Assembly (NCBI GenBank): GCA_949130485.1
Contig: OX422186.1
Span: 7,006,792-7,070,791 of the forward strand
Direction: 5' to 3'
From: Agelas oroides
Taxonomy: Eukaryota > Porifera > Demospongiae > Agelasida > Agelasidae
Length of the DNA: 64,000 nucleotides
Shown here: positions 21,932 to 59,159 of the stretch, in pieces
Position numbering within the stretch: position 1 is the first letter of the stretch
How the letters are laid out: every line of letters begins with the position of its first letter
Notes under the pieces: model-generated
Seen by the model: the letters and a program-made list of their open reading frames with translations, nothing else
What the model was told of the DNA's origin: nothing
Database searches by the model: none
Position numbers and translations under genes: made by a program

Positions 21932-24008
21932 TGCGATGTACCCCTATGATAGCTAGCTAGTTGGTGATACTCAATCTTCTACAGATATTGTTGTAACAGA
22001 GTGTTTCCAGTTTTTCTGCCTTTTTATAATGGCAAGCCAAAGGAGGCTATAACAACACTGATGTAATGTTTATTAATTCTTGCCCAGGGCTTTTCTTCAC
22101 CTTGAAGGCTTCGGTTTCAGTACTAGTGTAAACATTAGCTCAGACATGATACCTAATAACAGATGATGTAATGACTACTTTGTTAGGTTTCTCAAAGGTT
22201 CTTGGCAACCAGCCTTTATGCCTATACCTAGCTGTTTTGGATGATGTGATGTAATGTTGTGTCGATATCATGTTGCTAGGCAACATGCTGTGGTAGGCAA
22301 CATGCTGTGGTACGCTACAGATTGGCCATAATTACTTAGGGGAACTTCAGCAGTGTCTAAACTCCTACAAGGAAACATGGATTGTCCTGATTAAAAATGT
22401 ATCTTTGCTACTGCCATAGTTCAGTTCTTTTCAGTGTCCATTTTCGATCTGCTAACGATTTGCTCCTTGAATTTCTCCCTTATGACCTGCCACAATTCTT
22501 TCTTATCAGCACCTCAATCTCTCTAACTTGCTCACATGGTGTTGAATTTACATCTTGCCACTTGTGAGCAAACATACATATTTACTGTAGGAACCCAGAG
22601 CAATCTCGATTGTGTACATTCAGTAGCAGGTGAGCATTTCAGACTATAGATGGTTTACAAATATCAATTAAACCTCAGACCCTGACTTTTGCCCTCAGGA
22701 ACTGAAGCCATGCCCCCATGAAAACCATCCATAGCTAACAGCATTCGGGAGGAATGATAGAGGCAGTTCAGTTTCTACTGTACTAGGTACTATATATCTA
22801 TTCTGAGCATTACATAGAATAGGTACCAGCAAGAGAACCAACGTACAGCAAGTTATGTTGAAGGATAAAGATTTCCAAACCTGCAAAATTACTGGCCAAA
22901 ACATCACTACACCTGTGCACTTACAAACATCAATGCATGATACTGAATGATGAACTCTACATTGTTGTGAGCTAGAAATATACTGTTATATTGACATTGC
23001 ATTAGAACACTGCCATATTGTTTACACTGTGGCTAGAATAATGACATCATATATTATTATGTCTAGTACAGACTAAGGTGGCTAGCATGACAATTATATT
23101 ATGTCTAATACGGATGTTACAAAGGCAGAGTAGCAGCAGTAAGGTATGTACATATTCCATTAAAGGTTATGTGTAATAATGTTGGTGTGGGGGTGGGGGT
23201 TCCTTGCTATTTGATCTATGTGTATGTTACAAACCATCAAGGGGAGTAGGCTACATCACATGCCTATGATTATTGTGCTAGGTAGTAGTTGTGCTCTGGT
23301 TTTGTGTTGCAATATGTTGTCGTGACGCCATACTGTGATACCATGTATACTGGTACCATAGCTGTACCCATATAGTTCAAACTCAATTAGTCTCTACCAA
23401 TACCCCACTGTGGGATCCAACTGATACGAGTAAGTCTTAGAGCAAAAATAAATGTGAAAGGGGACTTTATCAACATCATAACATTTTCAAGTCCAAAGTG
23501 TAAACAAACAAACAAACAAGCCAATGTAACATTTACAGATGCATGTTCCTTCAATTTCTCCTTTTGTTAATTTCTCTGTCATGATTAATATATTGCTATT
23601 TTAAAGAACCCAGTTTACTGAATATGCTTACAGACATTCCCCATAATGCTAACAAGTTAATTTGAAAATACCCACCTTGATATTGGCATTTCCTACACTT
23701 ATTTATTTTGCTACCATGAAACCATAACACCAGCATGCCATCACTGCAGTGTATAGCTATACAAGCATGACATCATGGTGATGTAAGGCGTAGGTAGACA
23801 ATACCAAAGAAATATCTTACTACAGAAAAAATCAATTTTTTTGCTATGGGCAGTTGACCTTTATCTAATTTCTACGTACATGCTCGGATGCACAAGTTTT
23901 CTACAAAAATGTCATGCCCAGGTATGCATGTATGTGTTTGTCCATGCAACAGAGCCATCAAGAACATTGGCAATCACTTGGTTCTGTTGCAATCTGCTGT
24001 GATCTTAA
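21932..24008. other. Intergenic, mostly featureless
   Basis: One X-box-like palindrome, GTTGCTAGGCAAC, lies at 22272-22284, about 340 bp upstream of the membrane protein gene. Apart from the short ORF at 22695-22907 I see no genes. Confidence 0.5.
22695..22907 (-). other. Short ORF with signal-peptide-like start
   Basis: A 70-codon ORF with a strongly hydrophobic N-terminus (TCCTLVLLLVPILCNA) and a plausible cleavage site. Its first residues loosely resemble those of the neighbouring membrane protein. It could be the first exon of a third paralogue or chance; no downstream exon was found. Confidence 0.2.
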
Positions 24009-25432: not shown

Positions 25433-28400
25433 TTAGCGTGTGTCAGCACTGTTTTGGTTTTCCTTTTCTTCTATACTATGGACTTTGACAAACTTGACTG
25501 AGTCGTCCTTTAGGCCACAAATGAGGTATGACTGTTTGTAACTAGAGGTCAGCGATGCTGACATTGTGCAAATTAGTGTATGAAAGGAAAGGCAAGTAAC
25601 AAGTGAGCCTGTAGCAACTTCGTAGACAAAAACGGCTCTCTGTTGTAGACTTCGTGAACATATGTACTTGTCATTGCAAGTAAAGCACAGATTAAGAATG
25701 AGATTAGCATATGGTGGCAAACGATTCAGAAGCTCCCCCGTGAACCCATCCCAGACTATGATATTTCCTGCTCCATCTCCCGATGCTATCAAACTTCCAT
25801 CAGAAGAAATTGCAACCTTCTCCACAGAAGTGCTGTGTCCTTCCATTCTTTTTATTAAGTCACCAGCAGGAATGCTGTAAAGATGAAGCGAACTATCTGC
25901 ACTACAGGTGACTATCCTTTTCACATGCCCAAAAGAGAAGGCCACTTGCTCTACGCTATCATTGTGGCTTGACAGAGGAACCTTGTTGACTTCTAGCTGA
26001 TCTCGTGTAAAGAATACTTGCCACATTATAATCTTCCCATCCATATCTGCTGAGACAAAGTATTGACCACAAGGAGAGAACTCAAGGAAAGTGATCAGAG
26101 CATCATGAGCACTCAGGACCTTAACAGACAAGTAACCCTCTCCATACCACAGATAAAGACCTCCATCTCCGGTGCCACCAACAACTAGGCCCTGATTTGA
26201 GACAGCACAGTGGCAAATATCTTCTGGAGACGATGAATCTGGATCACTTGACCTCGTATAAGTGTTCCCTTGCCTCTGATAACACAGCGTACTCTTTCTG
26301 TCAAGTTTATCTGTATTCCATACTTGAATGTAGCTTCCTTCCCCGTAAGTGAGCAACAACTTTCCATTGGAAGAGAGACGTATCAAGTAGCCATCAACTG
26401 TGTTTTGGGCTGAAGCAAGTAGTCTGTTAGTGGGAATGTGCCAAAGAAAGAGGCTACTATTTCCACATGTGATTGCCCTTTCTCCATCGGGAAAGAAGGC
26501 AGATGTGGTGGCATTGCCAGGATGGACTGTGATAGTCTTACTGTTCCCAGCTCTAGACCTTTGCAGTAAGTCTTCATGACTATAAATGTGAATGCTAGTC
26601 TCAATCACACATATGATGTCAAACTGCTTGTCAAACATACAACAGGTTATAGGATTTGATGATCCATCAGGTCGAGTGGCTAATTCCAGCTTGAATGGCT
26701 CGTCTGAGAACTGTAAAATCCATGTTTTTAGGTATCCATTGGAAGTACCTGCAATGAGGTGTTGGCTGTCAGCAGAAAAGGCACAGAATCTGTACCTTGG
26801 AGGACGTTGTTCATCTAATACTTCCAGATCTAATGGCAGCACTTGAAGCAAACTGAGGGCTGCTGCATCCCAGATGAGGATTCCCCGATTACAGCAAGCT
26901 GCAAAGTAGTGACCATTTGGTGAATACACAACATGGTATATGGGATCGTCTTTTGGTTCAGAATCATGATGCTCTAGAAGTTCAGAGCCTGAAACAGAAT
27001 AATAAACGTAAGAACTTGTATGAACACATAATTTAAACCAATTACCATTCGTAGACAGGCTATGGATGGTTCTATGTGACCAGGTGAGGCTTAATGCTGA
27101 CAAACTATGATTATACTTTATTCAGATAGGCTGGGTTTGGTTGCCTTAGACTTAGATAACCATTGTCTGAGAGTTTGCAGTGACTTACTCAAGTTGGCCA
27201 GTGTAACATACTTTGTCAGCATTAAGGCTCATCTTGTCACATAGAAGCATGCATTTACCTGTTTTAGTCACTGATCCATCAGTGCAGAGGATGGCAGTTG
27301 GCTTGCCGGTAGAACTTGCCCACTGTATGATCCTACCATCTCTATGTCCACAGACGATAAACTTTCCATCGTGAGAAAAGCATGCAGAGGAAGGTCGGTT
27401 TTCTTTTCTTCTTGTGACCTCTAGTTTTGTACATGCGAGACTCGTTAAGTCCCAGAGTTCCACGGTAAATTCTGGCTTGAAGTTTATTCCAATTTCTTTC
27501 ATTAGTCTCAGAATGCCATCAACAAAGTGACTCCAGGCAAGAAGCTTCTTCCCATCAGGGCTGAATATACATGCAGTAGTATCACTATTAGCATTTCCTA
27601 TCATTGGTACAGTACTGCCAGTGATTTCTATTGCTTCATTAATGCTTCCATAGATCACGAGGTTCCTATCTGGAGAAATGGACAACCTGCTTATCTGATG
27701 ATTACCTGTCTCTTCCTCATGCAAGAGCTCAGCTGTCTGCTTCTTCCAGAAATAGATCTTGCCCTGCGAATCACTACACAGCAAAATATCTTCTGAAGAT
27801 GTCATTACACAACCAGTTATGCTGTCTTTACATGTGTAAGTCAGTAGAGCTGAGTGTGAGCTTTGTGATTTGTTAGTCACTTCCAGAAATGCCTTCATTT
27901 CTGAAAAAGTTTTTGTTGGGTCAGCAAGGAACTGGCTTATGCCCACTCTCTTGGTGAATGCATCTGATTCGTTGAGAGCACACTGAAAGACAAGATGAGG
28001 CAATATGGCTAGAATGTGTGCATACCTGCGTATGAAGGCTGAACAATCTTCTACTTGTTCAAAAAGCTGGGGATCTTCTTTCAATACTTCCTTTGCATTC
28101 ATGCAATCTGCTAGGAGATCTTCTGTACTGCCATCTGAGAGATGCAGCCTGTAATACATGAAGTGTATATCTTCAAGAGTTGTCACAAGTTTCTTGAGGA
28201 GACACTTTTTCTCAGAACTGCTCAAGTGATAGGCAACATTCTCAACCACATACTTCTTGACTGGGTTGGACGAGAGCTCCTCAATCCTTTCTCTGTTAGC
28301 CTTAGCTTCTTCAAGCATTGCATGACAGAGGGTTGCTAGGTGTTCATGCCCTGCTGTAGGATCCACAACACACTTACCTGCAAGTTGCTTATCTGTCAAC

Positions 28401-29484
28401 CATTCACGAACAGTTTTATGGAAAATGTGGATATGGTTGTTATGAACTGGGAGGAGAACTGAAGCAGCACTGATTATATCAGCAGCATCAGTTTGACTAA
28501 TTTGAAGCACTGGGGCAACAAGACCCTTGGGAAAGTCAGTTCGAGCAGCTATAACAGCCTGAAGTAGCCTTTGGTACTTCTCTTTACCCAATCTTTCGTA
28601 CAGCCTCAGGAAATTCTGATCATAGTAGTCATCAATTCCATCGGGAAGAAGTGTTTTGAGATCAGTCAATGTCAAGAACTGCTGTGAAATTAGTGTTTCA
28701 ATGGCATAGTGGAAGTAGAGAAACATTCCTTCGGACTTCTTGACAAGTAGATCAACTCCAGCCTCAAAATCTTCAGGGCAGATCCTCTCCTTCAGGATGT
28801 CACTCAAGAATGTTTTGATGTCATTAACATTGTGAGGATCATTTGGGCGGAGCTCAATAACTGGCCTTATTTTTATGAGCTTTTGCAAAATTTTCTGGTC
28901 TGGACGAGAGGTGAGTATAACACTGATCCACCTAGGAAGCTTCACAAACTCACGCACAATTAGTTTAAGAAGATCACTGCGTGAATCAAAGTTGCATTCA
29001 TCAATAGCATCGATAACGATGTACTTCTTTGGTTGACTTTCTGGAAGCCGAGAAAGGGGCTCAAGGATGAGGTAGGTGAAAAGTTCACTGACACTCAATG
29101 TTGATAGATCTGTACTCTCAAGTACATCCATCACCTTCGCACTGTACTGCGAAATGTGTGAACAAAATTGGTACACCAATGTCTGCACAAGCATTTTTGG
29201 GGTGCTTCGGTGACTTTTTTGGTGTTGGAAGAAAAAACAACCAGCTAGAGAATGTTCCTTTTCTCCTTTGGTACAGAGTTTTGCTGCAATTACTGATTTT
29301 CCCATACCTGGATTGCCTGTGATAAGGCAGATTTTGGAATGGCCTCGGTAGGCTGGTTCCTTTTCATGCCATTGCATGGTTTGCTTAAAGAGCCATTCTC
29401 GTGTACCTGGGTGGTGTTGCTCAGAATGATAGTCAATGTCAGCTTTAAAGTGGGAAGGATTTAGTTTGTGCGATAGCTCTTTTT
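25433..29484 (-). CDS. NACHT-WD40 core exons of the NLR
   Basis: Three exons (29484-27259, 27096-27046, 26988-25433) encode about 1277 residues without interruption. The NACHT ATPase has intact Walker A and B motifs and a helical region with LTSRPDQ (sensor-like). The C-terminal half is WD40 repeats, typically ligand-sensing or autoinhibitory in STAND proteins. The exon 5 acceptor (TTGCAG at 29485) shows that coding sequence continues upstream of the first in-frame Met at 29377. Confidence 0.92.
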
Positions 29485-32400
29485 CTGCAAGGGAGGAAGA
29501 ATGAACTGGTACTAGCTATATAGTGGTATCACCCTAATGCAAACACTATTGAAATCACTAGTATGCATTATTAAAGATTAAAAGATCCTATACTTTGTTA
29601 GAAATAATGACTAACATTTCAACACTAGATGGGATGCTGTAGACTCTGGTTAATAAAGTGCATGCGCTTATAAGTGTAAGTGGTAAGCAATATGCGCGTA
29701 ATAGAGGATATGCACTAAATAAGGGACGCAATGAAAGCCACCCCCCAGGTGGGCATGAGTGTGCAGTAGATCATTAGACGCATTCACCTGGCAAGTTTCG
29801 ACGTAAAATCAGAAGGCTCCATCCTCCACGAGAGACCGTGACTTGCAGCCATTGTATATTCAAGGAGATGTGCGGGGCTCTACGTGTCATATGGGAGAAG
29901 TTTTACTAGGCCTAGCTTAGTAGTCCAGTCATAAGCCACAAAGGATGCGGCTTATGACTTTGTGTTAGCCAGAAGTGGGAAAAACCTGTGTAGCTCTTAC
30001 TTCAGGATGACCATCAAGTGTACGTAATGGCAGTGAGTTCCGGGAAAGAAGTTGCGTTCAACCAGGTCGTATTATAGGCCATCGGTAAGGTTAGAAAGCC
30101 AGGAATGGTGCTGAAGGATGAACAAACGCTGGCATACGCTGGCAGCCCATCTTTCGTCACTGCTACCAGAAATATCCGTCCAAGGCAACTTGCAAGATCT
30201 TCCAGCTCACCTTGAATAGTGAACAACCTGCTAGCGTGTCTTGCATCCTCTTCGGAAAGGCAGAAATGACACAGCAAAGTTGTCACCATTGCGCGTCGCC
30301 GACTATGTTCTACACTCGTGCCAGTTTGTATATTTACCTCCGTGTTACTACCTGCAAGCTCAGCTTACGTGTTACGATAAATTTTACGGAAAGTATCATG
30401 AAATTCTTCACGCATGCGCGAACAGCGTGTACGAGGCGCTCCCTCCGATTTTTCGAGCGCCTGGGAATGAGGCTTTTACTTATTTCAAAGAATAAGGGGT
30501 GCAGAAAATAAGAGGTGCGAATTTCAGAATACAACATAAAACCCTTTTTTCCCCTTGAATTTGGATGCCTTAAAGCATCAAAAATGTCTGGAGAAGGCCC
30601 CTTCATACATTGCCAGACATCCCAAGCTACACCAAAAGCCTGGGGAAGGCTATGCATGTGTAACAAATCAAGGTGATGCAATTTTCCCCCTATTGAAAGC
30701 TGTCGGAACATGGCCATACCAGCTCTTAAGCAAGCGGTCCAGATAATTGGATTTTAAAGCAAGAACAGGACTCCGAAGTGCCTGGGAGGCTTCATTCTAA
30801 CATGTAACTAGCATGCCACTTGCTTCCTAACTTTCCAGCAGACTGCTCTCTCAAACCATGGCTGATTCAAGCCGGATTTGAGCTTGTTTCTATACAATAG
30901 TACCTTAGCTTTACAGAACTCTACTTTTGGTCGGCATAAGGCAAGGTTAGGCAGTGTACAAGCGGCTTTTGTCAACATTGTCACGCGCAACTCAATCGCC
31001 ATTCTCACACAAAAATTTGGAACATTTTGTAACGCCTGGACCAACCTGCACAATCTACATATCGGCGGATAACCCAAGAAAAATTGCACAAAATACATGA
31101 AAAATTACCGACCTGTACTTTTTGCACTACCCGAGCTACAAGCAAGCCAAAAATTCACATTTACATGTATGTAGATGGGTGTTGGACACAGCTCAATTAG
31201 GCAAAAGAAGCTAAAGACCATCGACACAAGCGAAAAGAAGCCAAAAGTAGATAACAGCAAGTTGAAATAATGTGGGCAATAGCATTGTAAGTACACACAT
31301 TTGTTCAGTGAATTACTGGTTGGTATTTTCTAGACGGCATTATCTTAGCTATATGGTAAGAAACTGGGTTATACTGTAGCATTTTCCGTAAAAGCATCAT
31401 GCATACAATGATGACTAGTCCCATACCCAGGAGCGTGGAGTATAGATTGAGACAAATGTGTAAACCGGCAAGCAACAAAGCATATGCATTCTTTATCCAC
31501 AAAGACGGGTGATACGAGCAAGGATAAAGAACAATTAATGCTTGAAAGTACTTTAGGCATGACAAAGTACACCTCAGAGTTCAGTTTTCTTTGAAATATT
31601 GTATCAATTCGGACCTTGCCAGTATCACCCATCTTTAATGCCTTTGATATGACACTGCTTGGCATACAAACATGTCACACAGGTAGTGACCCCATCACAT
31701 ACCTTTAACTATGCTATTTTTGTAGCCTCATGCCCAGGCACTAGTGCTGCACGATATTGAAATTTTGCATATCAATTATTGTGGACTCCATAGTGGGTTC
31801 TCAGAGTACGGTGACACGACCTTACCGAGACGACAAACAGCTAGTCCTGGGTAGAAATCAACCGTTGCGTGTTTCGACCGCGTTACATGCTGTAGCACAA
31901 AACTTCCATTAAGAGCGGGGCTCATACGCTCTACATAGACTTATCAGGTATTCATGCATCTTCGCTGCCCATATGAGCCCCGCCCTTAACGAAAGTTTTG
32001 CGCTACAGCGCTTCGAACACGGTAACGCGGTCGAATTGCGCAACGGAATAATGTTTGATTTCCACCCGATTGGAGAAATGCGCGTGCGCGTCTCAATAAT
32101 CGCGATATAGCGATATATCGATACGCAAGCGAGCCGTATCGATATAGGTATCGAGTAAGTAGCTAGACCAATATATTGGAATATTTATATATTGTGCCAG
32201 CACTACCAGGCACCCAGACCACAAAGGGGAAAAATACTTGTGAACTGCCTACAATGGTTTGGTTCCAGTCACAGTCATGTTGTGAATATCGGGAAACTTT
32301 CGAGGGGGGAAACTTCCACAAATTTGGGAGGTTTTGTGGCTATTCATGAAAGTTTTCTTCATGAAATTTGGGGGCATAGTGTCTTTTGGAGGTAAAATTG

Positions 32401-35400
32401 GTGGCACCAGCGAGCACTCCGCGAACGTTTTCTCTGCAAAAATCTTATTTTCCACCAATTTGCAAAACTTTTCTCCCTTGAAAGTTTCCCGCTATCAAGG
32501 GTGCATCGAGCCACCGAAGGCGGTGAGAGGGCATGCAACTTCCCATAGTCTATGTATAGACGGCATAGTGCTGAGTGTTACTATAAAAACGTTTCTGGTT
32601 AAGCACGTGAAAAATTGTGTACGGTATGATTATTGACGTTCACGGAAAGCTTTCCTACAGCAAGACGACGATATCAGTAGTGCTTAGGAAGCGCCATCCA
32701 AGCGGAGGGAGACAGTCTCTTCCAGCCAGGGTAACTCATCAACCTGGGTAGTCGGCCAGATTCAGCACAAGTATCGTCGGATGCAGCTCAAACATTCACC
32801 GCTCTCAACAAAAGCTCAACGTATGCCACCCTATGGCACCTTCTGTATCCGAGAAATCTTTGATTTCCAGTTCACACGCTAAGTCTTCGCCAAAGATGAG
32901 TGCTGCAGACGGGATCTCAGCCACTCTAGAGAAAAATGTGGCACGAGCAATGCACGTACTGGAAATACATTTGAAAGCTATTTAGTAACGCTCAGCATTT
33001 TGCTGTGTATGTACGTTACATGCCTTCTCGCCGCGATACGCCCTTGCCACTATACAGTATTTTATGCAAGGGGCTAGTAAGAACAATCCATGTACATGTA
33101 CCTGTACAGTGTACAAGGCTACTATACTAGTACGGGCAGTTGATGCACTAGTACATGAATTCTTATTGAACACCATCCTGTTGGTCTCTTGAGATGGCGG
33201 CATAGCCATGGCACAATGATATCGATGTAAATGCACACCCTGTAGCTATGTGCCAGTGTTGTCACTGTATCACCTACCAGCTCAGTGAGTGAAATTACCA
33301 CATTCAATAGCATGGTATTTTCATGTCCATTCAGGCACACTTATTCTATTGAGACACAGTAGCACACTGGTTGGTTGCACATTGAGGGAGTGAGACAACA
33401 CTGGCATACTGATTGACAGATATAGCAGCACACTTGCTACAGTACACTTCAGGAATTACTGGCTGGTACTTTCTAGATGGCATTATTTTAGCTATATGGT
33501 AAGAAAATGCTATTGCCTGCATTATTTCAACTTGCTGTTACCTACTTTTGACTTCTTTTAGCTTATATCAACGGTCTTTCGCTTCTTTCAGCTCCCTGAG
33601 CTGTGTCCGATGCCAGTTTACGTAAATTTTTGGCTTGCTTGTAGCTTTGGTAGTGCAAAAGTTTACAGTACTTTGTGCAGTTTTTCTATCTGCCAATATA
33701 TAGATTGTATAGGTCGGTCCAGGCGTAACAAAATGTTCCAAATGTTTGTGCGAGGATGCCAATCGTCACGCACGACAATGATGACAAAAGCCACTCGTAC
33801 GCTGCCTAACCTGGCCTGATGCTCACCAAAGGTAGATTTCCTTAAAGCTAAGGCACCATTGTATAGAAATGAGTGCAAGTCCCTCTTGAATCGGCCATGG
33901 TTGGAGAGAGCTGTCTGTTGAAAAAGACAGGAAGTAAACGGCATGCTAATTACACGTTAGAATGAAGCCTCCCGGGCACTTCCTGTTCTTGCTTTAAAAT
34001 TCCAATTATCTGGATCACTGGCTTAACAACTGATACGGGCTGTATCAGTGCCACTGGACACTTGACTTTCATTGACATCAGTTTGATAAGCACTTACCTA
34101 AGCACATCTATTTACAAATGCTGCTAAAAGGATACTCTCTTATTGACAGAAAACAGTGAAGTTTGACTCTAAAAGCGATATAGTGCATGTACTTATGCTA
34201 TTATTTGTCAACTTTAGTTGACATTTGTAGTAGGAAATCCCCACAATGAGTAAAAAAAGTTGACAATAGGTTAACCAAAGCTTAGTCAACACTCCCAACG
34301 TATGATTCCATGATTTTGCATGGTGACTAGGTTAGGATGGGAGTTCCGGCATCTTCCAAGGAGTGTATAATGGCTGACCTGTCTCTAGTGAGATATCCAG
34401 AGACAGTTGGCGTGCAGCACCAAACCATTCAGGGGGAATTTCAAGAAGTTCATCATCTTCACCAGAGTCAATACCTAACAAGAAAGTGGTTGGAAATGGA
34501 TTATAGAAACATCCTTGGGAGGCACACGGTCTTAACTGTAAGTCAGAGCATTCTCAATGCCACTTACCCAAAGCTGTCTTCATTCTGTCAGCTAGTGGTT
34601 TTAATGCAGGGTAGCTTCTAATAATACTGCAAAACTTCCTCAGATGTTCATGGGGCTTGTTTGAAGTTTCCAGCCCAGCTTCTATCTCATTTACAAGTTG
34701 AGCTGCTTTCCGTTCTGTAGAGTAACTCTTGTTGGTCATAATGTCTACTTGAGTAGCCTTGCTGATCAGTCCCTTACTATAGAGATCAGCAGCAAGGGAT
34801 TCAGGCTGTTGAATGGCCTGTGCCAGTTCAGAATACTGTCGACGGAAGACCTTCCTCACTTCACTAGGACAGGGAGCCGACTGGTCTGAAATTGATGCAA
34901 TACCTGTGAGTATTAGAAGTTTCAATTAAGTTGTCAGAGTCTCTCATTGAAAAATCCATTTAAGCACAATGCGCATGGATAGGTCAGAGAAGGATGGAAC
35001 GTATTTCGTGATCTTTCACGTGGTTGCCTTTATTACACATAATTACTCACGCTAATGTATGGGAGTCAATGGGGAAGCCTCGCAGCTGCATGCAGCTTAT
35101 AAAAAGCCATATTTTTTACTACAAGCCACGTGACAATCCGTATCAGTACTGCAAGTCACGCGAGAATCTGCATCAGGTACTACAAGTCACGCGAGAATCT
35201 GTATCAGGTACTACAAGTCACGTGCGCTGTGTCTGACCGTGCAATGAAATTGAAGGTTCGTATGATAAAATCATTATTCGCCATAGTACCGAGCTATACC
35301 AGAAAAAATATCACTCGTTTGTTGCCGTGGCATTGTTACTTGTGCTGCGCACTCGTACTTATATAATCCGATATCAAATGTCAAAAGTGGACAAATCTAG

Positions 35401-38400
35401 CTGGAGAATGTTTCACTTTAATATTTCTCAAAAAGTGAAAGCAATTCGAGATCTGTACCTAATAGTCTACCCTATAATTTTGGAAAGACAGTGCTCATGG
35501 AGCAAGAGGGCCCAAGAGTGTCACAAGATTCTTATCTTCTCTAGTATATGTCTACATGCAATGTAGCGACGTTTTAGACTGCTGTTTCTGCTGCCTTGCA
35601 AGCTATGGAACACTAGCATTCTTAGTCTCATTCCTATACCCAACTATTGTGGGTTGCCCTTGCCTGGATGACCCAGTTTTTTAACCCCCGGCGCGCATGC
35701 GCAGCGAGGGTTACGGTACTTGGTCTGTGTGTCTGTCTGTGTGTGTGTCTGTGTGTCTGTTACTCAACATCTCACTTTTCATGTGATTATTCGTGCCACA
35801 AACGATACTAACCTTCTCAGCGGCGGATGAAGGTCGAAAATTTTAAGCGATTTTCTCTGAAAATGCTTCGTTGCAAAGCTAGAGTGTTACCTGTTGGTAC
35901 GGCTATATGATAAGTCGGCCATTTTTTACTCCGCGGAAAATGCACATGCGTATGAACCTGGACCACGTGGCTAACGGCCATTTTGTTCTTGGGAGAGGCG
36001 TTCTTTGCGAGTTCGATTATTGGCCATTGGCAGTATGCCTCCAACGAAGGTATGCCCGCTGCCCTTTACTTATCAGGTTTCATCCAGTAATTATAATACT
36101 GGCACTGCTGCGCCGAGGGTTTGGCACTTCAGTGCCTTTCATTGTTCACGTACATGTTACTACAATAATTTCACACATATTGAAACATACGAAGCATACA
36201 CATGCTGCTGCATTGCCAGTCCATATTGGGGCAACTGCAAAACACGGAAACGCGGGAACGGAAAGAATGCCTAAAACAGAAGTCAATTTTTTTATAGTAG
36301 CCAGATACCACGAGAGTCTGGCTACGTGAGACTAAGCCGTAGTAGCCGTAGTAGCTGCCCTAGCAGGACATAAATGTAATTATTTCTTTGCATGCGTAGC
36401 TACTAGCCTCGTTCCCACGCTGGTGCGCGGGCTAGTTTAGCTGGTGAAAACTGTCTTTGCCTACTGATATGAAATTCTAGTACATTTCAAATCAGGTTCA
36501 CCCCCCAATACGGCTGTAATGTGAGCTACGTTTCACACCCACACTACGATGACATCGGAAGACACACAAGCCAGGTCGCTCAGGGTCAATAGATTGAGAG
36601 CTATGCACACTAATCTTGGACCCGAGCACGTTGCGCCCTAAGTTCTGGCTGAAGTTCTTGTGTTGGGTACTTTAAACCAACAGACAGGACAAATGACTGC
36701 ATTGTCATATGCCAGCAGTGTGGTCGTCTACCTGGCTGCTTAGTCTCACAGGCCAGACTATCACGTCCCGCGTGAGAGTCTGGCCTGCGTGACTACTGGC
36801 TGCTATCAGTCAGTCGATACACAACTACTCAAGGTCCCACGATGACGAAGCGGCTATGTCTCCCTGGTATAAGTTCACGGATCGAAGAATGTATCCAGTG
36901 TGGTGCTAGTTCAGGCTTATCTGAGATGCTTGGCGAGAGTAAAGCCACGAGACTGGCTCAGGTTTGCCACATCTTTAGGTTATTTCCGTTCCCGTTTCCG
37001 TTCCCACGTTTCCGTGTTTTCCAGTTGCCCTCCATATTGCTATGTCCAGGGCCAAGCATATGCAGCGCACACACATGTAAAATTATTGCATGATATTGCA
37101 GTAAGTGACTTATGCATGCTTAATGCCAGCTGCATTCTTTACATACACTACCCAATGGCTGACTAAGGTAGATTTTTCTTGTCTCAGCAATATAATTAGG
37201 CTAAGTCCCTGAAGCATAAAAATGATCAGCAGTGAACTCATGGTATAATTTTCCGACTCAGTTCTAGAGCAACCCTTAGTCTTGTTTTGAGGTCATACTT
37301 TTCACTCCCACTTGGCAAAATATAGTCTAGATCTCAGTGCGAGACCATGCATTTCCACTCTCCTTGTTCAAGTCTGATGTTGTTTAAAGAGTATATGTTA
37401 TAAGATTCTGTACGTAATGCGGGTTGCCATTCCTCTTTAGCAGGGCCAAGAATGATGCCACTGTCATAAGCATGCATGAAAACTTTATCATCATCCTTGA
37501 TCACCATCACTTATCTGTAATAATTTCGTCTCCTGTCCATGAGTCATATCACTATTTTTGTAGTAAAATAAATTTGCAATATTCACTGGCTAAATCATCA
37601 GCCTGTTATCAGTGTTGATAGTAGTTACAAACCACCACAGCAAGCAAGATTGTGACAGTGATTGACTGCTGTAGTAACTGGCAATGAATAATCCTACCTA
37701 GCTAGCGGTGATCTGATAATGCAGTCCTGAAAATATGTCTTTGATAATGACCCTATAGAGCTGTTATTGTCATTTGCATTTAGCACAAATTGCACAGAAA
37801 CATCGGCTCTAAAAAGTTAAGCACAATTTTTAGCTAGCTAGGTAGCTTATCTAACTCTACTGGTGCTGGCTACAAGTCCCTTTGCTGACAATTTTTTGCT
37901 AAGGTTACAAATATTTGCCATCAGGAGACTCAATTCTTGGCTTATGAGCTTCTTGTAATCCAAGAAATGATATTCTGATGGTTGTAGCCTTACCAACAAA
38001 TGGGTTGCAATAAAGCAATGAAAGGCACTGAAGTGCCAAACCCTCGGCGCAGCAGTGCATGTGATTGTACTTGTGTGTTAGCTAGAATCAATCACTGTCT
38101 CGTGAACAATAGTATCATGACGTTTGCTCTCGAGTTGATATGGCACGCTTTTTGATATTAAATACCATTCCTAACTGTCTGTCCTCGAATCTGTTCTGAC
38201 AGCTAGGCACTTGGGCCTAATAGCAGTACATTGTGGTTATTTGACATCATGCAACCTACACAGCTATGCAATATGACATTGCATTGTGGTCATTATACAT
38301 CTATACTATATTTAGAGCAGCAATACATCAGTGTTACTATTTATACACACATGACACAGCACAGTGACTAAGTTATGACTTAGCAATAATAACTATCTCT

Positions 38401-40495
38401 TACTTTGTGCATTCTATCTCGCTCTTTCCTCTACACAGTTTGCTCAAAGGTTTCAGAGTCTCTCATGCTTGCCATGCGCATTCTGTTTTGTTCCTGCCTA
38501 TACAGAGTTCGCTCACGAGTTTCTGACGCTCTTTCACAGGCCTTGTGCAACTTATCTTTAGCTTTCCTAGCTGATTTCGCATTATCTGATTCTACTGATC
38601 TCATACGTTTCATAGCTTTCTCTCGCAAGTTACACTCTGCTTTTCGTTTGGATCGAAAGACATGATCACAGCGTTCACATGTCTTCCATCTTACAGGTAC
38701 AGCAGCTTTACACTGCGGGCATACCTTTGTTGGAGGCATACTTACTGCCAATGGCCAATAATCAAACTCGCAAAGAACGTCTCTCCCAAGAACAAAATCG
38801 CCGCTAGCCACGTGGTCCAGATTCATACGCATGCGCGTTTTCCGCGGAGTAAAAAATGGCCGACTTATCATGTAGCCGTACCAACAGGAAACGCTCTAGC
38901 TTTGCAACGAAGCATTTTCAGAGAAAATCGCTTAAACTTTTCGACCTTCATCTGCCGCTGAGAAGGTTAGTATCGTTTGTGGCACGAATAATCACGTATA
39001 AAGTGAGATGTTGAGTAACAGACACACAGACAGACAGACACACAGACACACAGACCAAGTACTGTAACCCTCGCTGCGCATGCGCACCGAGGGTTAATTA
39101 CTAGAAGTGCACATACGGGCCGTCACTATTTGGTGGACTAGACTACTGGACTGGGTTCGTGTAAAAGCCGGACTGCCGGATCACCCGGATCACCAAAGAA
39201 TGCGAGCAAAATTGAATGGACAATTTTAAAGTTTTTTTGCACATGCACAGTAAACGTACATCACACTGGCTCTCGTTCAGGCAGAAATCTACTTTTTCTC
39301 AGGCTAGCAGCCTCCAGGCTTCTTTGTATAGTGTGACTGTTTTGAGGCAGTGGCACAAAAAAGGCATTCATGAAAGCTCTGCTGCCTCAAGGCTTATGCA
39401 CGAGGTAAGCCAGCTAGTCACCTACCTGGTAGTTTCTCGCTGTACTGTGCACTACCGCTGCGTGTTAGGCACACTCTTTGGTTTCAGTAAGTTGGCATTC
39501 GCGTAGAACACCTACCGTGAGCTTATAGCATGCTTGTACCTCTGTGTTTGTACATAGCTATCGTGACTTACCTATGGCAAGGAGCTCAGCTACACCTATG
39601 AAGATTTTCTATATCTGTGAAGGCCTTAGGAAGGCCAAACCACACGATCAAGACTGAATACTGCCAGCCCAATGGGTTCAGGCCTACAACATCGTAGAGC
39701 CAGCGCTCGTTTCCGTACAGCAAAAGGTGGGCGTGGCCTGGTAACGAGGCTTACATAACATACTTATATGCAGATAGAAAACACTTTATAATGGTCCGTT
39801 CAATTTTTGCATGCAGTTTTGGTGATCCGGCAGTCCGGCTTTTACATGAAGCCCTACTGGACTAGACCACTAGACTGTACTACTCGACTGACGAAAAATG
39901 CCTCGAAATGAAGAATGAACAGGACTGTAGTGCTAAAGAGCTCCAACTACAGCCTAGCAAGTTACACAATTCATGCAACACAAGCTGAAGTGTGCTTACA
40001 AGTCTTATAGATAAGCGTGCTCGTTAAGTGTCGTACAGTCCCAGTCCCAGGCCGCATAGAACAAAGGCAGGGTGGTCACAATTGGCTATATACTGGACCC
40101 ACTAGATTTATGAGTTGCAATAACTAACTCCTTTCCCCAGGCTCCACCCTCAGAGTTGGGTGATAAATCCCTGGTTACCATGCAATATTGATTACATACC
40201 TGTTGGGTGGGTTCCATCAGAATCATGTTTCCTCAGGTAAGTTACAGCCTCTCCCTCACTACTGCTGCTACTGCTCTCATTGCCTATTATGGTAGAAGAA
40301 GGTGGATCTGATTGATTTCACTACTGGTAGTAGAGAGTTCACCTTCCTGCAATAGTTAGATGGCTTATAAAAGCCTACCAGTATAGGTCTAGTTGGCTTG
40401 TATCATGTGGCCACACAATTGCCTATGCACTACGACATAAAGGACAGGTAATTGATACCAGCTGCACAGTTTGGCAGGTTCTTTGGTGGCTGCTT

Positions 40496-40576
<81 letters not shown>

Positions 40577-43500
40577 ATATAGGAGTGCTCCATCAATTTC
40601 ATTTTACTACTACAGAACAAAAAACTGCCACAGAAGACACAAGCTTCTTTAGCATACAAATGTTTTTGTTTGAACTCCCTGCACTGTGATGCAGGAACAT
40701 AGTGAGTGAAGTTATTTCATAGTACAGAAGCGGATCCTCCCCCCCCTTCGAGACTAAGCAAGCGCGAAACGCAGAGGTTTACCACACGCTTAGTGCACGT
40801 ACATGTAGCTACTCCAACACAGTGCGCATCTCTATATGAATCACTGCTTCATGTCCTGTGAATGTAAAGCACTCAAATCTGCCGCTCCCAAGAGACAGTT
40901 CTGTGGCAATGCCTCAAATACAAAAACTGATTCCAAAGGGAAGGGGCTCCGAGAAATGACCATACGATGAATCACCTGAGTTACACTCCAGTTGCCATAA
41001 ATGTTGCATGGTTATGGTGGTCTCCGACGGACTCAGAACTCAGCCACTGAGTTGCTGAGTGACTCGGTAGCTCAGTTGGTTAGAGCATGGCAGGCCATTT
41101 GCCAGGTCGCGGGTTCGAGTCCCTCCCTGAGTCACTGTCTTGTTTTTCCCCTCTTTCTTTCTCGTCTTTACTTCTCACCTTTCTTTCTCTCTGACTTTGA
41201 CTTGGGTTAAAAGGTCTGACTGTCAGGTCTGGAGCATGTTTTATCTGAGCCTTCATGTGCCTCACGCTTTGCGCTCACCGCACCCCCCCCCCCCCTCCCT
41301 TCGAGACTCAGCAAGCGCGAAACGTGAAGGTTTACTGTGCGCTTAGTGCACATTCTTGTAGCTACTCCAACACAGTGCACATCTCTATATGAATCACTGC
41401 TGCTCCCAAGAGACAGTTCTGTGGCAATGCCTCAAATACAAAAACTGATTCCGAAGGGAAGGGGCTCCGAGAAATGACCATACAATGAATTGCCTCAGTT
41501 GCCATAAATGTTGCGTGGTTATAGTGATCTCCGATGGACCCAGAAGCAAGGTCTAAATTTTAAAATTTTACGGGGGAACGTGCCCCCAGACCCCCCTAGA
41601 ACGCTGTGCGCTATATGCGCATACAGCGGATTTCAGTTGTGTTCGAATCTTCCGTGTTGCGTACGCAATCCGGAAGATTACGTGCATGTGGGTGTTCACC
41701 ACACGTGTACATGAATTGCGCAATTGCGCGGGTACTAGTACACCGAAACGTTGAAGCTAAAGCTGATTTCCTCTGTTTGTAGTTCTAGTTTGAAATTGCC
41801 CTGCATTATGGAGGGAGGCCAGTCTGACCCTGAAGCTGACAACCCGCATTGGAATTGGAGCGAGGAGCATCCTTACAGCCAGCATGGCTACAGTGATTAC
41901 TACCCACCATACTATGACTCATCACATCGCACACTCTTGGCGTTTCCTCCAGCAGCTACAAACTGTATGCAGAAGGACCTAAACATCCAGGTGAGGTGCT
42001 CCAGGTGAGGTGCTCCATTTAGAATAGCCGGGCTGAGGGTCACTTTATATGTGCTAGTGCGAAGCACTATGCTCCCATCTGGATTCACCCAGTGTGTGTG
42101 TGTGTGTGTGTGTGTTGGTGTCGGTGTTGGTGTGTGTGTGTGTGTGTGTGTTGGTGTCGGTGTTGGTGTGTGTGTGTGTGTGTGTTGGTGTCGGTGTTGG
42201 TGTGTGTACGTGTGTGTGGGCATATCTATGGTGTGGGTATGTGTCGGTGTGTATATGTGTGTGTGCATGCGATACATAATTATATGTATCGCATGCACAC
42301 ACATCGCATATATGTATTGTATTGCCTTACCTATAGGCATTACATTTCTGTCTTTCTGTTACAGTGCAGCTCAGAGAACTCTACACAGTTGAGAATCTCG
42401 TCAAAGCAGACATATACATACAGAGTTAAAGTGGTGAATCGTGCAAAGAAATCTGAGTACAGTATCAAACGAGTTAAATACACTGAGAAGTTTAGTTCCG
42501 TAGAAGATGTACGTACAGAACTACAGTCTCTGGATGTAGCTACAAAAGATGTTGGCTACATTGAACCTGGCCATGGCGTTAAGGGTAGACAGATGTGGCT
42601 AGGGACAGAAGACGACTTGCATGAAATGTACCAGATACATGATAAGAAGGTTAGGAGTGAAATATTGTTGTGGTGTTATATGAAGGTGGAAAGTGAGGAT
42701 GACCGACCAGTCGGATCAAGAAAGCGTCCTTTGTCACCGACAAACTGTGACTCGGTGCCTGCCACAGGATCAAAGCGTACGTCATTTGCTCAAAAACTGC
42801 AAGAAGTGGAAAAGATTGTCGAGGAGCTAAAGGAAAAACATGGTGCTAGTTATGGCATTGAAAAATTAAATGCTTGGGCTCATCTTCTCCACATGGGCAA
42901 ACATGATTCGTATGAAACACCACCTAATCTTCCCTATTTTGGAAAAGGTGGAGATGGTATGAAAGACAAACGGAAATCACAGAAAGCACAACCTGTTGAG
43001 ATAAGTTCTTCACCAAGTAAACGCCTAGGGCTTCGTGGAGAGTGCATAGAGCAGCTCAGTAAGTGGCACAACTTACTCGAAAAAGGTGCCATCTCAGTTC
43101 AGCAATACGATGAGCTAAAGGAAACAATAATGGGTGACCTTTTCAAGTTGGGACCTACTGACTAGCTTTGTGTATAGTAAGTTACTTAGTACTGAATGCT
43201 ATTACAGAACATGCATTTCAGTTTTGTTCATCTGATTACACATCAAATGGTTGTTATATGTGATCAACATAATTCAGTTTCCTTGAGTCACTATAAATAA
43301 CATAATTGGGGTTTACAAATATCCTGAATGTGAAATCCATGCCTGACAATGTTCTTCTGTAATGCTGTCAAATGCCGTCTTGATCAAGTCTATAGGGGAA
43401 GGGATTGATTGGAACAGTTCATCGTGTTTTCTTAAATAGCCCTTAATATAACTAAATGCTTCCTCTAATGGGTTGAGATCAGGGCTGTATGGAGGGAGAA

Positions 43501-44963
43501 AAAGTACTACAATTCCAGCCTGCCTTAGTAACTCTGTCACTTCTTCAACATGGTGCACTGAGCAGTTGTCCATTATAACTATGGACCGTGGGTTCATCCC
43601 ATTAAATGCCATCATGTTTGGGATTAATGATGCTCTGAGATAATCGAAAAACTTGTCACCATTTACAGTGTCTGTTGTCAGGTCCAGTGCTATTATCCCT
43701 GTGGAAGACATTGCTGTGATGGCATTGACTCTCTTGCCTCTTGTTAACAGTCGATGGTACTCAGCCCTCATTCCACGGAGAGAATATCCATACTTTCGGA
43801 TTGCATCCCTGGTTGCTGAACCAGTTTCATCTATCCAGACAAACATATCACGTTGATATAAGAATGTCTGAGCCATAAAGGCTCCTCTTAAGCTGTCACT
43901 TCTCTGGAGGGCAACCTGCCTTATCTTTTTGCGTGAAATGCCATATCGCTTAAGTAGCCTGCAAACAGTGGAAGGGGATACTGCTTCCCCAGTAATATCA
44001 CGTATGTTGTAGCACACTTCACTGAGGTAGACAGATGGATTTTCAATCACAAAACCGATAACATGTAGTTCAGTGTGCATGTCAACTGCTCGGATTTCAT
44101 GCCTCTCTAGCGTTTGCACAGGATCTACTCCTCCAGTTTGCTCAAACAGCTGATAAATCCGGTTAGCTGTACTGGCAGCGATGTTCAAGTTGCGGGCGAT
44201 TTTGTAGAAAGGAAGGTTCATCGCTATGCGTTGGTACACTATTCTCCATCTCAGATCAGCAGAATACGACTTCTTTCTACCTGGTTCGGCTGACATGGCT
44301 TACAGCTATAGTTTTTAAAAATACCGCCACACGCAGATACGCATTACGCATGTGCACGCAAAACTCATCGTTGCGTACGCAACATGGAAGATTCGAACGC
44401 AACTGAAATCCGCTGTATGCGCACAGACAACTGCGTGCTGCGCGCGCCGCACCACCCCCACACCACTCTATATGTATGCCCCCCCTCCCCTTCTACAATC
44501 TCTGGATCCGCCCCTGTAGTAGCCTATCTGTAAATTTCCACTCACCAAGCTCGCTTCTTATGTCTTTTGCGACAGGTTTCAGTGCAGGTTGATTCTTAAC
44601 AGCTCTACAAAACTCCTTCAGGGCAACCGCTGGTTTGTGATGGGTAAGGAGCATCGCCTCCACGGCATTCAGGATTTTCACAACTTTCTGAGTCCTTGGA
44701 AGACCTTGTGTAGTTAGTACCTCGTCCCGAGTTCCAGTACTAATGAGACCTTTAGCGTACAACAGGGTGGTTAGCCGGTCTGGGTTGACGACACCTCCAG
44801 CTAACTGGTCGTAATGACGCCGGAAAACCATAGCTACGATGCGCTTTTCAGCGCTAGAAGTGGGCCGTGAGCCCCAGTCACTGGGTGGTAGCTTTTGTTG
44901 TAGAGCCATAGCAGCTGCGTGCAGGACAAAATTTGGACCAAGATCAAAGTTGGTCCGCTCCAC
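25433..44963 (-). CDS. NLR/STAND receptor: CARD-like x2 - NACHT - WD40 (7 exons)
   Basis: Predicted intracellular sensor of the STAND ATPase class. Exons 5' to 3': 44963-44546, 40307-40200, 34903-34568, 34474-34379, 29484-27259, 27096-27046, 26988-25433. All six joins are GT-AG and in phase, and the sum is exactly 1597 codons including the stop. Residues about 25-139 and 177-288 are two related helical death-fold domains; 140-176 and 289-320 are Ser-rich and acidic linkers. NACHT follows with Walker A GNPGMGKS (about 376) and Walker B YIVIDAIDEC (about 474). From about residue 880 there are roughly 14 WD40 repeats (GKIIMWQV, GNIIVWDGFTG), enough for two propellers. The NACHT-WD40 half is certain. 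The link to the upstream CARD-like exons rests on strand, order and phase. Another start, Met19 at 44909, is possible. No lesion was seen. Confidence 0.72.
27046..27265. repeat. Inverted repeat around an NLR intron
   Basis: The first part of the small WD40 exon with its acceptor (about 27050-27104) is repeated, inverted, at 27212-27265, where it spans the donor of the same intron. In the core 29 bp (27076-27104 against 27212-27240), 26 match. Transcribed RNA could pair and bring donor and acceptor together. Confidence 0.75.
29485..30715 (-). other. NLR intron, left part
   Basis: No additional exon, RNA gene or complete element recognised. A hairpin-family half-site (CCTGGGAATGAGGCT) is near 30461. 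Confidence 0.4.
31742..32205. mobile_element. hAT-like MITE with 8-bp target duplication
   Basis: Termini TAGTGCTGCACGATAT and ATTGTGCCAGCACTA, flanked by perfect 8-bp direct repeats CCAGGCAC (31734-31741, 32206-32213). The TIR style and 8-bp duplication fit hAT. The interior includes a strong palindrome (about 31850-32072). Confidence 0.82.
32286..32495. mobile_element. Small TIR element inside foldback B
   Basis: Inverted ends GGGAAACTTTCGAGGG and CCCTTGAAAGTTTCCC bound about 200 bp of noncoding sequence. Target duplication not clear. Confidence 0.5.
34379..34903 (-). CDS. NLR exons: second CARD-like domain and acidic linker
   Basis: Exon 34903-34568 encodes a death-fold-like helical domain with YSKGLISKAT, FCSIIRSYPALKPLA and a C-terminal ALG. 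Exon 34474-34379 encodes an acidic linker (DSGEDDELLE) that joins in phase to the NACHT exon at 29484. Two acceptors 18 nt apart (34904 and 34886) both keep frame, so the domain start may vary by six residues. Confidence 0.75.
35142..35225. repeat. Three-copy 33-bp tandem repeat
   Basis: Three units of the form TACTACAAGTCACGCGAGAA in an NLR intron. The surrounding 34037-35680 has nothing else recognised. Confidence 0.8.
36745..36800. repeat. Hairpin GGCCAGACT...AGTCTGGCC
   Basis: An inverted repeat around a CACGTCCCGCGTGAGA centre. Related TAGCCAGA/TCTGGCTA arms lie near 36298-36325. Confidence 0.6.
38431..38739 (-). pseudogene. Truncated zinc-ribbon protein ORF of the TTAA element
   Basis: Starts MPPTKVCPQCKAAVP with a CxxC...CERC zinc-ribbon, followed by an Arg/Lys/Glu-rich helical tract with repeats of an ASMRDSET type. 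A TAG after 102 codons probably truncates the repeat region. The start codon lies in the element's inverted arm, so the opposite arm (plus strand, about 36033) has the same MPPTKVCP start without the continuation. I recall similar N-termini in multi-copy proteins of early animals; function unknown. Confidence 0.55.
39153..39854. mobile_element. 702-bp TIR element with 9-bp target duplication
   Basis: Inverted ends GGGTTCGTGTAAAAGCCGG and CCGGCTTTTACATGAAGCCC, flanked by a perfect 9-bp direct repeat TACTGGACT (39144-39152, 39855-39863). The 9-bp duplication suggests a Mutator-like non-autonomous element. No ORF. Confidence 0.82.
39864..40199 (-). other. NLR intron sequence
   Basis: No feature recognised between the 702-bp element and the linker exon. 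Confidence 0.5.
40200..40307 (-). CDS. NLR linker exon (Ser-rich)
   Basis: 108-nt exon with acceptor CAATCAG and donor GTATGT encoding a Ser-rich hydrophilic linker (NESSSSSSEGEA). It is in phase with the CARD-like exons on both sides. Recognised by splice signals and phase only, so less certain than the domain exons. Confidence 0.55.
40497..40576. repeat. (GATA)n microsatellite
   Basis: About 20 GATA units. The minus-strand ISIYLSIYL ORF through it is an artefact. Confidence 0.97.
40741..41535. repeat. Pair of about 270-bp direct repeats flanking a tRNA-like unit
   Basis: Copies at 40741-41035 and 41290-41535 share CTTCGAGACT, TAGCTACTCCAACACAGTGC and AAAAACTGATTCC. The left copy has about 45 bp extra. 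The spacer holds the tRNA-like sequence. Confidence 0.8.
41061..41134 (+). other. tRNA-like sequence (probably SINE-derived)
   Basis: Acceptor halves GACTCGG/CTGAGTC pair with one wobble. The D-arm has a good A box (TAGCTCAGTTGGTTAGAGC), the anticodon stem TGGCA/TGCCA pairs perfectly, and the B box GGTTCGAGTCC is intact. Against a working tRNA: position 33 would be G rather than U, the T-stem has a mismatch and there is one surplus base. Nominal anticodon CCA. It more likely marks a tRNA-derived SINE or pseudogene. Confidence 0.5.
41808..43165 (+). CDS. Passenger protein of the DD34E transposon (two exons)
   Basis: Exon 41808-41990 and exon 42365-43165 join in phase (donor CAG|GTGAGG, acceptor CTGTTACAG), giving 327 aa. 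The N-terminal 60 residues are rich in acidic and aromatic residues. The middle is a compact basic domain (KRVKYTEKFSSVEDV; MWLGTEDDLHEMY). Then come KRP nuclear-localisation-like patches, a WAHLLHMGKHDSYETPP motif, and a C-terminal helical pair LLEKGAISVQQYDELKE resembling a SHOCT domain. The intron contains a complex TG repeat. The location between the TIRs makes it part of the element. Function unknown; a DNA-binding or regulatory partner of the transposase is a guess. Confidence 0.72.
42092..42222. repeat. Compound (TG)n/TTGGTGTCGG microsatellite
   Basis: TG runs interrupted three times by TTGGTGTCGGTG, in the intron of the passenger gene. Cys/Val or Thr/His ORFs here are artefacts. Confidence 0.92.
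43313..44296 (-). CDS. DDE transposase, Tc1/mariner-IS630 superfamily, intact
   Basis: 327 aa, uninterrupted. An N-terminal paired-like HTH (YKIARNLNIAASTANRIYQL) is followed by a second helical DNA-binding part (SPSTVCRLLKRYGISRKK) and a DDE_3 catalytic domain. Catalytic residues are Asp in FVWIDETG, Asp in IVIMDNCSVHH and Glu in SPDLNPLEEAF. The second Asp and the Glu are separated by 34 residues (DD34E). No stop or frameshift, so the copy may be young or active. It is convergent with the passenger gene, 147 bp apart, between shared TIRs. Confidence 0.92.
   Translation of the reverse strand: MSAEPGRKKSYSADLRWRIVYQRIAMNLPFYKIARNLNIAASTANRIYQLFEQTGGVDPVQTLERHEIRAVDMHTELHVIGFVIENPSVYLSEVCYNIRDITGEAVSPSTVCRLLKRYGISRKKIRQVALQRSDSLRGAFMAQTFLYQRDMFVWIDETGSATRDAIRKYGYSLRGMRAEYHRLLTRGKRVNAITAMSSTGIIALDLTTDTVNGDKFFDYLRASLIPNMMAFNGMNPRSIVIMDNCSVHHVEEVTELLRQAGIVVLFLPPYSPDLNPLEEAFSYIKGYLRKHDELFQSIPSPIDLIKTAFDSITEEHCQAWISHSGYL
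44546..44963 (-). CDS. NLR first exon: N-terminal CARD-like domain
   Basis: 139 codons. A short leader precedes a helical death-fold-like domain sharing FRR(H/Q)Y, LY(A/S)KGLIS, FCRAVKNQPALKPVA and a terminal ELG with the second CARD-like exon at 34.6-34.9 kb. The donor is G|GTGAGT in phase 1, the same phase and relative position as in the second domain, which indicates exon duplication. The first ATG is at 44963, an alternative at 44909. Confidence 0.8.
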
Positions 44964-52450: not shown

Positions 52451-52932
52451 GCCAGGCTGCAGCGTCGGCGCGAAAGAGACCGAGAGCGAAGACGATCACT
52501 CAACAGACCGAGGTGAGGCAACGTAATTTGTTAGCTAGACGCGAGCGCAGAGCGGGGGAGCAGCCCGAAACTAGGCAGGCCAGGCTAAATAGACTACGCG
52601 AGCGCGACCACGAACGTAAAGCAATGGAACAGCCCGAGGCTAGACAACCCCAGTCGTTAGGCCAGCGGTCCATTTCATTCAGATACAGGAAGTGCACGTA
52701 GAGCTACATTCCAGTGTGTAATTAACGCAATGGATACTTCCTGACTTTTCTACAAGCTAGCTCCAGCCAGCAATGGCAGAAACGAACCGGACTTGCACCA
52801 GTTTGCGAAGAGGTACCTTTCTGCTGTTCATAAATGTACTTTGTATCCCGGTTTGATAATGCCTTCCAGCGTTGCGACCGTTTTTCGCAACCTCGTCGCG
52901 GGACGAGACTCGTGATATGTTGCCGCGTATTT

Positions 52933-55323: not shown

Positions 55324-55999
55324 TGCTGGCCTTTCACTTTCCTCTATTTCGCCTCAAAAACATCTGAACTATCAGCTATCACATAGCCTGTCTTCCAACT
55401 TTGGGGCCCTGAATGCATACAAGCCAAGTCAGTTACTTTACTTTTGGTACTCAAATCACTTTACCTTTCAGTTCACCCTGCACAGTGGCCAGTGCATCTC
55501 TCTGTACAGCATTCCCAGTTAGAACGCACCAGTAAACATGCCAATTATGTAAACCGCAGCATAATATTTCAGCCCAACTTTGAGCCCGCATAACTGCTAA
55601 CTGCCCGAGCGGAAGTTTTTGATTTTTACATATTTTGTACAGCTATCCGTGGGCTATCTGTACATATATATATCGCCAGGGTTCGGGTAGTCAAAAAAAA
55701 ATGTACTAAAATACGCGGCAACATATCACGAATCTCGCCCCGCGATGAGGTTGCGAAAAACGGTCGCAACGCTGGAAGGCATTATCAAACCGGGATACAA
55801 AGTACATTTATGAACAGCAGAAAGGTACCTCTACGCAAACTGGCGCAAGTCCGGTTCGTTTCTGCCATTGTTGGCTGGAGCTAGCTTGTAGAAAAGTCAG
55901 GAAGTATTCATTGCGTTAATTACATACTGGAATGTAGCTCTACGTGCACTTCCTGTATCTGTTCTATTGTTCTTGGACCGCTGGCTTAACGACTGACCC

Positions 56000-58664: not shown

Positions 58665-58767
58665 GGAACCAGTGGTTAGAAAGAAGATGGTTGTGGTGAG
58701 GGTGTAGCCCCACTGCTCTCCTGACACAAGTGGTCCACAGTACGAACAGTACTGCCAGCAAAAGCTG

Positions 58768-59151: not shown

Positions 59152-59159
59152 CCACTTCA

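Follow-up and report, generated by a model that had tools for sequence, protein, structure and literature searches.

Gene organization at the locus

The window, i.e., the whole 64,000-nucleotide stretch of Agelas oroides DNA analyzed, holds on its minus strand a predicted gene of six coding exons, running from 44909 to 25433, whose product combines two CARD-like domains with a NACHT domain and WD40 repeats. A DNA transposon occupies part of its first intron, and a probable membrane protein gene follows it. The features are presented in Table 1.

Table 1. Exons of the double-CARD NACHT-WD40 gene and other features of the window.
Feature	Position	Strand	Content
Exon 1	44546..44909	-	ATG and first CARD, residues 19-121
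Exon 2	40200..40307	-	Ser/acidic linker, 36 codons (108 nt); symmetric 1-1; weakest exon, may be skipped
Exon 3	34568..34903	-	Second CARD, residues 169-269; symmetric 1-1; no ATG ahead of the domain
Exon 4	34379..34474	-	Linker, 32 codons; symmetric 1-1
Exon 5	27259..29484	-	NPHP3-type NACHT, residues 328-514 (Walker A at 358, Walker B at 456), by Pfam
Exon 5, further domains		-	TANC1-like winged helix, 643-734; APAF1_C-like helical domain, 704-808; first WD40 blades from about 833
Exon 6	25433..27096	-	Remaining WD40 repeats and stop codon
Probable multi-pass membrane protein gene	20078..21943	-	Directly downstream of the double-CARD gene; by eye
DNA transposon	41616..44423		Inside intron 1
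DDE_3 transposase ORF	43316-44299	-	In the intron 1 transposon
Multi-copy ORF	42374-43162	+	In the intron 1 transposon

The joined exons amount to 4794 nt, that is, 1597 codons and a TAA, with no internal stops. The preliminary description of this DNA had proposed an in-phase join to exactly 1597 codons, which holds, from seven exons and a start at 44963, which do not: six coding exons are found, and the first in-frame ATG is at 44909, the frame being open upstream to 44999 without a further ATG. All five introns are of the GT/AG type and every junction is of phase 1. Given that every internal exon is thereby of the 1-1 class, agreement of frame is weak proof that the exons are spliced together. 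Exons 5 and 6 alone keep about 1296 codons open, and this places the core gene beyond reasonable doubt.

The donors of exons 1, 3 and 4 score 7/9. Exon 2 has a good donor (8/9) and a poor acceptor (41% pyrimidine), and since all internal junctions are of phase 1, skipping it would keep the frame, leaving a protein of 1561 aa. The frame is also kept by an alternative exon 5/6 junction at 27189/27071, which gives 1612 codons; hence, 1597 is not the sole in-phase total. This junction was not chosen, as its WD40 blade is worse by eye.

NACHT-WD40 core

Pfam assigns the core to NPHP3_N (1.7e-28) and NACHT (2e-9, with 38 bits against a cutoff of 26.7), both above the curated cutoffs. The motif GNPGMGKS lies at residue 358 and YIVIDAIDE at residue 456, which we take to be Walker A and Walker B, respectively. 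With a NACHT match above cutoff and both Walker motifs, the core has the marks of a NACHT STAND NTPase. Beyond the NACHT domain, the winged helix (HTH_TANC1, 2.9e-7) and the APAF1_C domain (PF17908, 6e-6, 26.7 bits against a cutoff of 22.8) also exceed the Pfam cutoffs, and exon 6 presents six WD40 stretches (4.1e-29). The C-terminus matches WD40 and beta-propeller families, and not the LRR of a bona fide NLR (NACHT-LRR). Other libraries add little: NCBIfam yields one weak NTPase match on exon 5 (0.019), and PADLOC yields HEAT-ARM_XIII on the WD40 exon (1.9e-8) and two weak matches on exon 5 (0.0052 and 0.0075).

In terms of the APAF-1 family, the predicted gene model has the N-terminal CARD and the C-terminal WD40 and lacks the NB-ARC domain, which is absent among the best 25 of the 35 Pfam families listed for the gene; nor is the locus among the seven NB-ARC places of the genome. 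The earlier proposal that NACHT stands in place of NB-ARC is therefore upheld. In an exon-wise search of the genome, NPHP3_N was found at E<=1e-5 in two places only, namely this gene and a paralogue at C4:7080416, hereafter gene B.

N-terminal CARD domains

The domains encoded by exons 1 and 3 are homologous, as had been claimed: 37 of 97 positions are identical (pairwise E 2e-25), and their alignment score of 189 compares with a maximum of 48 in 2000 shuffles. Both are basic, with pI values of 10.1 and 9.4. Their predicted structures are CARD-like bundles of high confidence (pLDDT 95 and 92), nearest to Apaf-1-type CARDs and resembling CARD more than DD or PYD, so the expectation of death folds survived the fold prediction proposed as its check. 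The first helix is unbroken in the exon 3 model, unlike in that of exon 1.

A family profile of 29 rows, 26 of which were kept by the program, was compared with four CARDs of the same genome (two at L037 and one at L038 checked by Pfam, one at L039 by eye), yielding Prob 91 and E 1.1e-6 over 87 columns. The control with the genome's own Death domains, which remained unmatched, yielded Prob 1.1 and E 0.05. Predicted fold and family profile together support the reading of both N-terminal domains as CARD-like and, with the Pfam matches of the core, the overall architecture of two CARDs, NACHT and WD40 that had been put forward.

This CARD family is not called by the standard domain library. None of the 29 members scanned reaches the PF00619 gathering score of 23.9 bits, and weak matches to that family occur in three of the 29, the best (E 0.013) being far under the cutoff (compare 38.5 bits at 1.1e-9). 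The exon 3 domain matches HSR in Pfam at 17 bits, where 24.9 are needed, and no publication that links the HSR domain and the death domain in sponges was found. Searched by sequence against solved structures, exon 3 alone has no match at E<=10; a two-row profile finds no CARD and two weak Dlg1 matches (best E 0.74), and the 29-row profile finds no CARD and three weak matches (best E 0.51). The two-row alignment, scanned over viral contigs (53 pattern matches) and genome contigs (20), gave no confirmed relative.

CARD family across the genome

Across 259 Mb in 141 contigs, the exon 3 query matches at least 84 places at E<=0.01, both CARDs of the window included. Flanks were inspected for the best 28 places outside the window, and the ORFs of nine of these were scanned with Pfam. 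NACHT lies in or beside five of the loci (L004, L010, L013, L019 and L025), Death at L016, AIG1 at L011 and a protein kinase at L022, with a ZU5 match below cutoff beside L003. At L007, NB-ARC follows the CARD by 1.9 kb. L025 carries CARD and NACHT in one open frame, and equal frame lengths indicate that five more loci do so.

A listed PF05729 NACHT lies within 5 kb downstream on the same strand at 19 of the 84 CARD places, compared with none of 84 for NACHT downstream on the opposite strand and two of 84 for NACHT upstream on the same strand. Given that the NACHT list consists of 105 scored out of 314 candidates and lacks the NACHT of the window itself, the figure of 19 is a lower bound.

Several further arrangements were observed. 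At L022 and L018 a RING/TRAF-like exon (RING by eye) precedes the family CARD, with a protein kinase next in L022; this row may encode a RING-CARD-kinase protein. The CARD of L018 contains a stop. Two CARDs at C11:1424815 and C11:1427470, followed by a NACHT at C11:1429293, form a candidate tandem-CARD NACHT locus by position only.

The family also bears on the origin of the CARD pair. Exons 1 and 3 stop at the same point of the domain, each with a phase-1 donor, and this shared phase and exon end had been taken as a sign of exon duplication. The likeness is present, yet it is not special to the pair: near the CARD end, 24 of 30 family loci (the window's two included) have a best donor of at least 7/9, and 23 of these 24 are in phase 1, which makes the shared phase and end a family trait. 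A local duplication is instead suggested because the two exons are nearest to each other. The best genome match of exon 3 is the exon 1 CARD (2.4e-18, the next being 1.5e-8), and the two are mutual nearest rows in the 29-row tree with support of 93/88, a good value that is below the tool's star mark and involves a long exon 1 branch. Hence, the derivation of the CARD pair by local duplication of a phase-1 exon, out of a large CARD exon family, is moderately supported by sequence comparison.

Paralogues, neighboring genes and mobile elements

Gene B (L032, L034-L036; C4:7080416-7086590) is an inverted paralogue that faces away from the double-CARD gene and has the same NACHT-WD40 core, the NACHT exons of the two genes being 42% and the WD40 exons 30% identical. 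No CARD was detected in the 10.9 kb ahead of its NACHT exon. The best match of exon 1 or exon 3 in the 32.7 kb gene B stretch (E 0.09) falls within the core of gene B and that of a third copy, located at C4:7098448, which seems 5'-truncated. Three ORFs upstream of gene B were scanned with Pfam; two have no family at E<=0.01 and one matches JAKMIP_CC3 below cutoff. The lack of a detected CARD at gene B implies that a NACHT-WD40 core need not be accompanied by CARDs; the pair would then have been either gained by the double-CARD gene or lost by gene B.

The membrane protein ORF downstream of the double-CARD gene matches nothing in Pfam at E<=0.01. Members of this membrane protein family are also found, by eye, downstream of gene B (L035), and their presence after both NACHT-WD40 genes suggests that a block of two genes was duplicated in inverted orientation.

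The transposon in intron 1 has terminal inverted repeats of 78 nt, 83% complementary. Its plus-strand ORF was considered as a host gene splitting exon 1 from exon 3, and was rejected: its family amounts to 106 genome matches when the ORF itself is counted, and the closest of the others is 97% identical. With a family of this size the ORF looks repeat-borne, and the content of intron 1 is a transposon, not a rival host gene. Upstream of the gene, the window also contains a hAT-like ORF (46914-49275, by eye), an RVT_1 reverse transcriptase ORF (51241-52530, Pfam), a Helitron-like ORF (55997-60101, by eye) and DUF6589 ORFs at 62618-63905, one above and one below cutoff.

One receptor or separate products

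We consider it likely that the locus produces one double-CARD receptor from one predicted transcript. This is favored because exon 3, having no ATG ahead of its CARD, needs an upstream coding exon, and because exon 1 supplies both an ATG and a phase-1 donor, its CARD being the one most similar to that of exon 3 anywhere in the genome. The recurrence of CARD before NACHT elsewhere in the genome (19/84 against 0/84 and 2/84) argues in the same direction.

It could instead be that the receptor contains only the exon 3 CARD, exon 1 either opening a CARD gene of its own or being left over from the exon duplication, and the true first exon lying elsewhere in the 10 kb between them. Exons 1 and 2 are indeed separated by a 4.2 kb intron with a transposon, exon 2 is weak, and several family CARD exons resemble first exons, with an ATG shortly ahead of the domain (by eye). 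Introns of 4 to 5 kb also leave room for alternative first exons. We regard this arrangement as unlikely, however, as the clean phase-1 donor of exon 1 requires a downstream exon, exons 1 and 3 are mutually nearest, and no further 1-1 exon with a donor of at least 8 turned up on either strand of introns 1 and 2 in a screen that would miss donor-7 exons such as exons 1, 3 and 4. The same screen found three in intron 4 on the strand of the gene.

Less credible still is a division into two transcripts, with a NACHT-WD40 protein begun near exon 5 and an independent tandem-CARD adaptor made from exons 1-4. Exon 5 does have an in-frame ATG ahead of the Walker A motif, so a transcript beginning nearer exon 5 is possible, and the core of gene B has no CARDs found upstream. 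We nonetheless hold the division to be improbable, given that the phase-1 donor of exon 4 fits the strong acceptor of exon 5 (pyrimidine 0.88) and that a CARD exon ahead of NACHT recurs in the genome. Finally, a reading of the gene as the APAF-1 orthologue of the genome, its NB-ARC having diverged, is disfavored and hardly tenable: the order of parts is alike, the APAF1_C-like domain is present and the CARD fold is nearest to Apaf-1, yet the matching families are NPHP3_N and NACHT, NB-ARC is absent among the best 25 of the 35 Pfam families and the locus is not one of the seven NB-ARC places, and C6:8632847 holds another gene, of CARD-CARD-NB-ARC type, that is followed by WD40-like exons.

Proposed mode of action

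The explanation we prefer, and deem probable on balance, is a single gene for a double-CARD STAND receptor with APAF-1-like action, its CARD pair having arisen by local exon duplication. The protein would be a cytosolic STAND switch consisting of CARD, linker, CARD, linker, NPHP3-type NACHT, winged helix, APAF1_C-like domain and WD40 propellers. By analogy with APAF-1, the WD40 part may keep the protein in a closed state and sense a ligand of danger or damage, whereupon nucleotide exchange in the NACHT domain would lead to opening and to the formation of a ring. The paired CARDs could then seed a CARD stack and recruit CARD-bearing partners encoded in the same genome, for which CARD-Death adaptors, CARD kinases and possibly CARD caspases are candidates. 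What the analysis establishes is the anatomy, comprising open frames, the splice frame, the homology and predicted fold of the two CARDs, the order of domains and the family context; ligand, oligomerization, partners and an immune or death output are all inferred from the analogy.

Implications

The divergent CARD family, uncalled by the standard domain library, is a more useful result than the gene itself. PMC12909245 reports CARD-NLRs as missing from seven of eleven sponge genomes; with a CARD family that escapes Pfam, the CARD-NLR counts published for sponges may be too low. A re-count with the family profile could alter this seven of eleven, as well as the sequence in which CARD and Death receptors are inferred to have originated. 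The gene, in turn, offers a test case of whether the APAF-1 layout was attained independently by NACHT and by NB-ARC receptors.

A wider reading, which we advance tentatively and rate as somewhat short of an even chance, is that the animal operates a pair of double-CARD WD40 wheels side by side. One, its APAF-1, would be based on NB-ARC and the other, the product of the gene described here, on an NPHP3-type NACHT, each having been put together independently from a different CARD family. The Pfam-uncalled family, with its at least 84 places, would then be the main signaling plug of intracellular receptors, and the scarcity of CARD-NLRs in sponges would largely be a detection artefact.

Comparison with known systems

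The NACHT-WD40 core is shared with the fungal HET-E/NWD2 proteins, whose N-terminal effector domains differ from CARD. Vertebrate NWD1 is likewise a NACHT-WD40 protein and is not known to carry a CARD. Within the same genome, gene B has this core in common with the double-CARD gene and differs in that no CARD was found ahead of it, whereas CARD-NACHT genes such as L025 have the same CARD family before the NACHT domain. The NACHT of L025 is a canonical PF05729, in contrast to the NPHP3-type NACHT of the double-CARD gene.

NACHT-WD40 is also mentioned for a sponge (PMC12909245) and a ctenophore (PMC11797021), and NACHT or NB-ARC with WD40 for coral (PMC4083563). Related combinations appear in PMC6321704, where NB-ARC or NACHT of placozoans is found together with CARD or death-like domains and with WD40 or TPR repeats, and in PMC2575513, where amphioxus has TIR-NB-ARC-WD40. 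A literature search, for which the Amphimedon (Yuen 2014) and coral (Hamada 2013) studies were known from citations only, found no report of a double CARD on an NPHP3-type NACHT with WD40 in which the CARDs are uncalled by Pfam. The layout thus appears new in combination, its kind being already known.

The doubled CARD ahead of a STAND-WD40 core, which the preliminary description had set apart from the APAF1 layout, is not new, because the Nematostella Apaf-1 homologue is reported with two and a gene of the same genome also has two. According to PMC2246300, the Nematostella protein has two CARDs before NB-ARC-WD40, and CARD pairs are mentioned in amphioxus too. The gene at C6:8632847 (L037) has two Pfam CARD stretches (1e-23) and an NB-ARC (5e-34), with several small WD40-like exons downstream by eye (L037/L041), and is probably the APAF-1 of this genome; in the double-CARD gene, by comparison, the WD40 repeats are contained in two exons. 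With these two-CARD forms of APAF-1 the gene shares the CARD pair, a STAND ATPase, a WD40 sensor and an APAF1_C-type helical domain. It differs from them in that an NPHP3-type NACHT replaces NB-ARC and that the CARDs come from a different family, uncalled by Pfam. The gene would hence be a NACHT-based counterpart of APAF-1.
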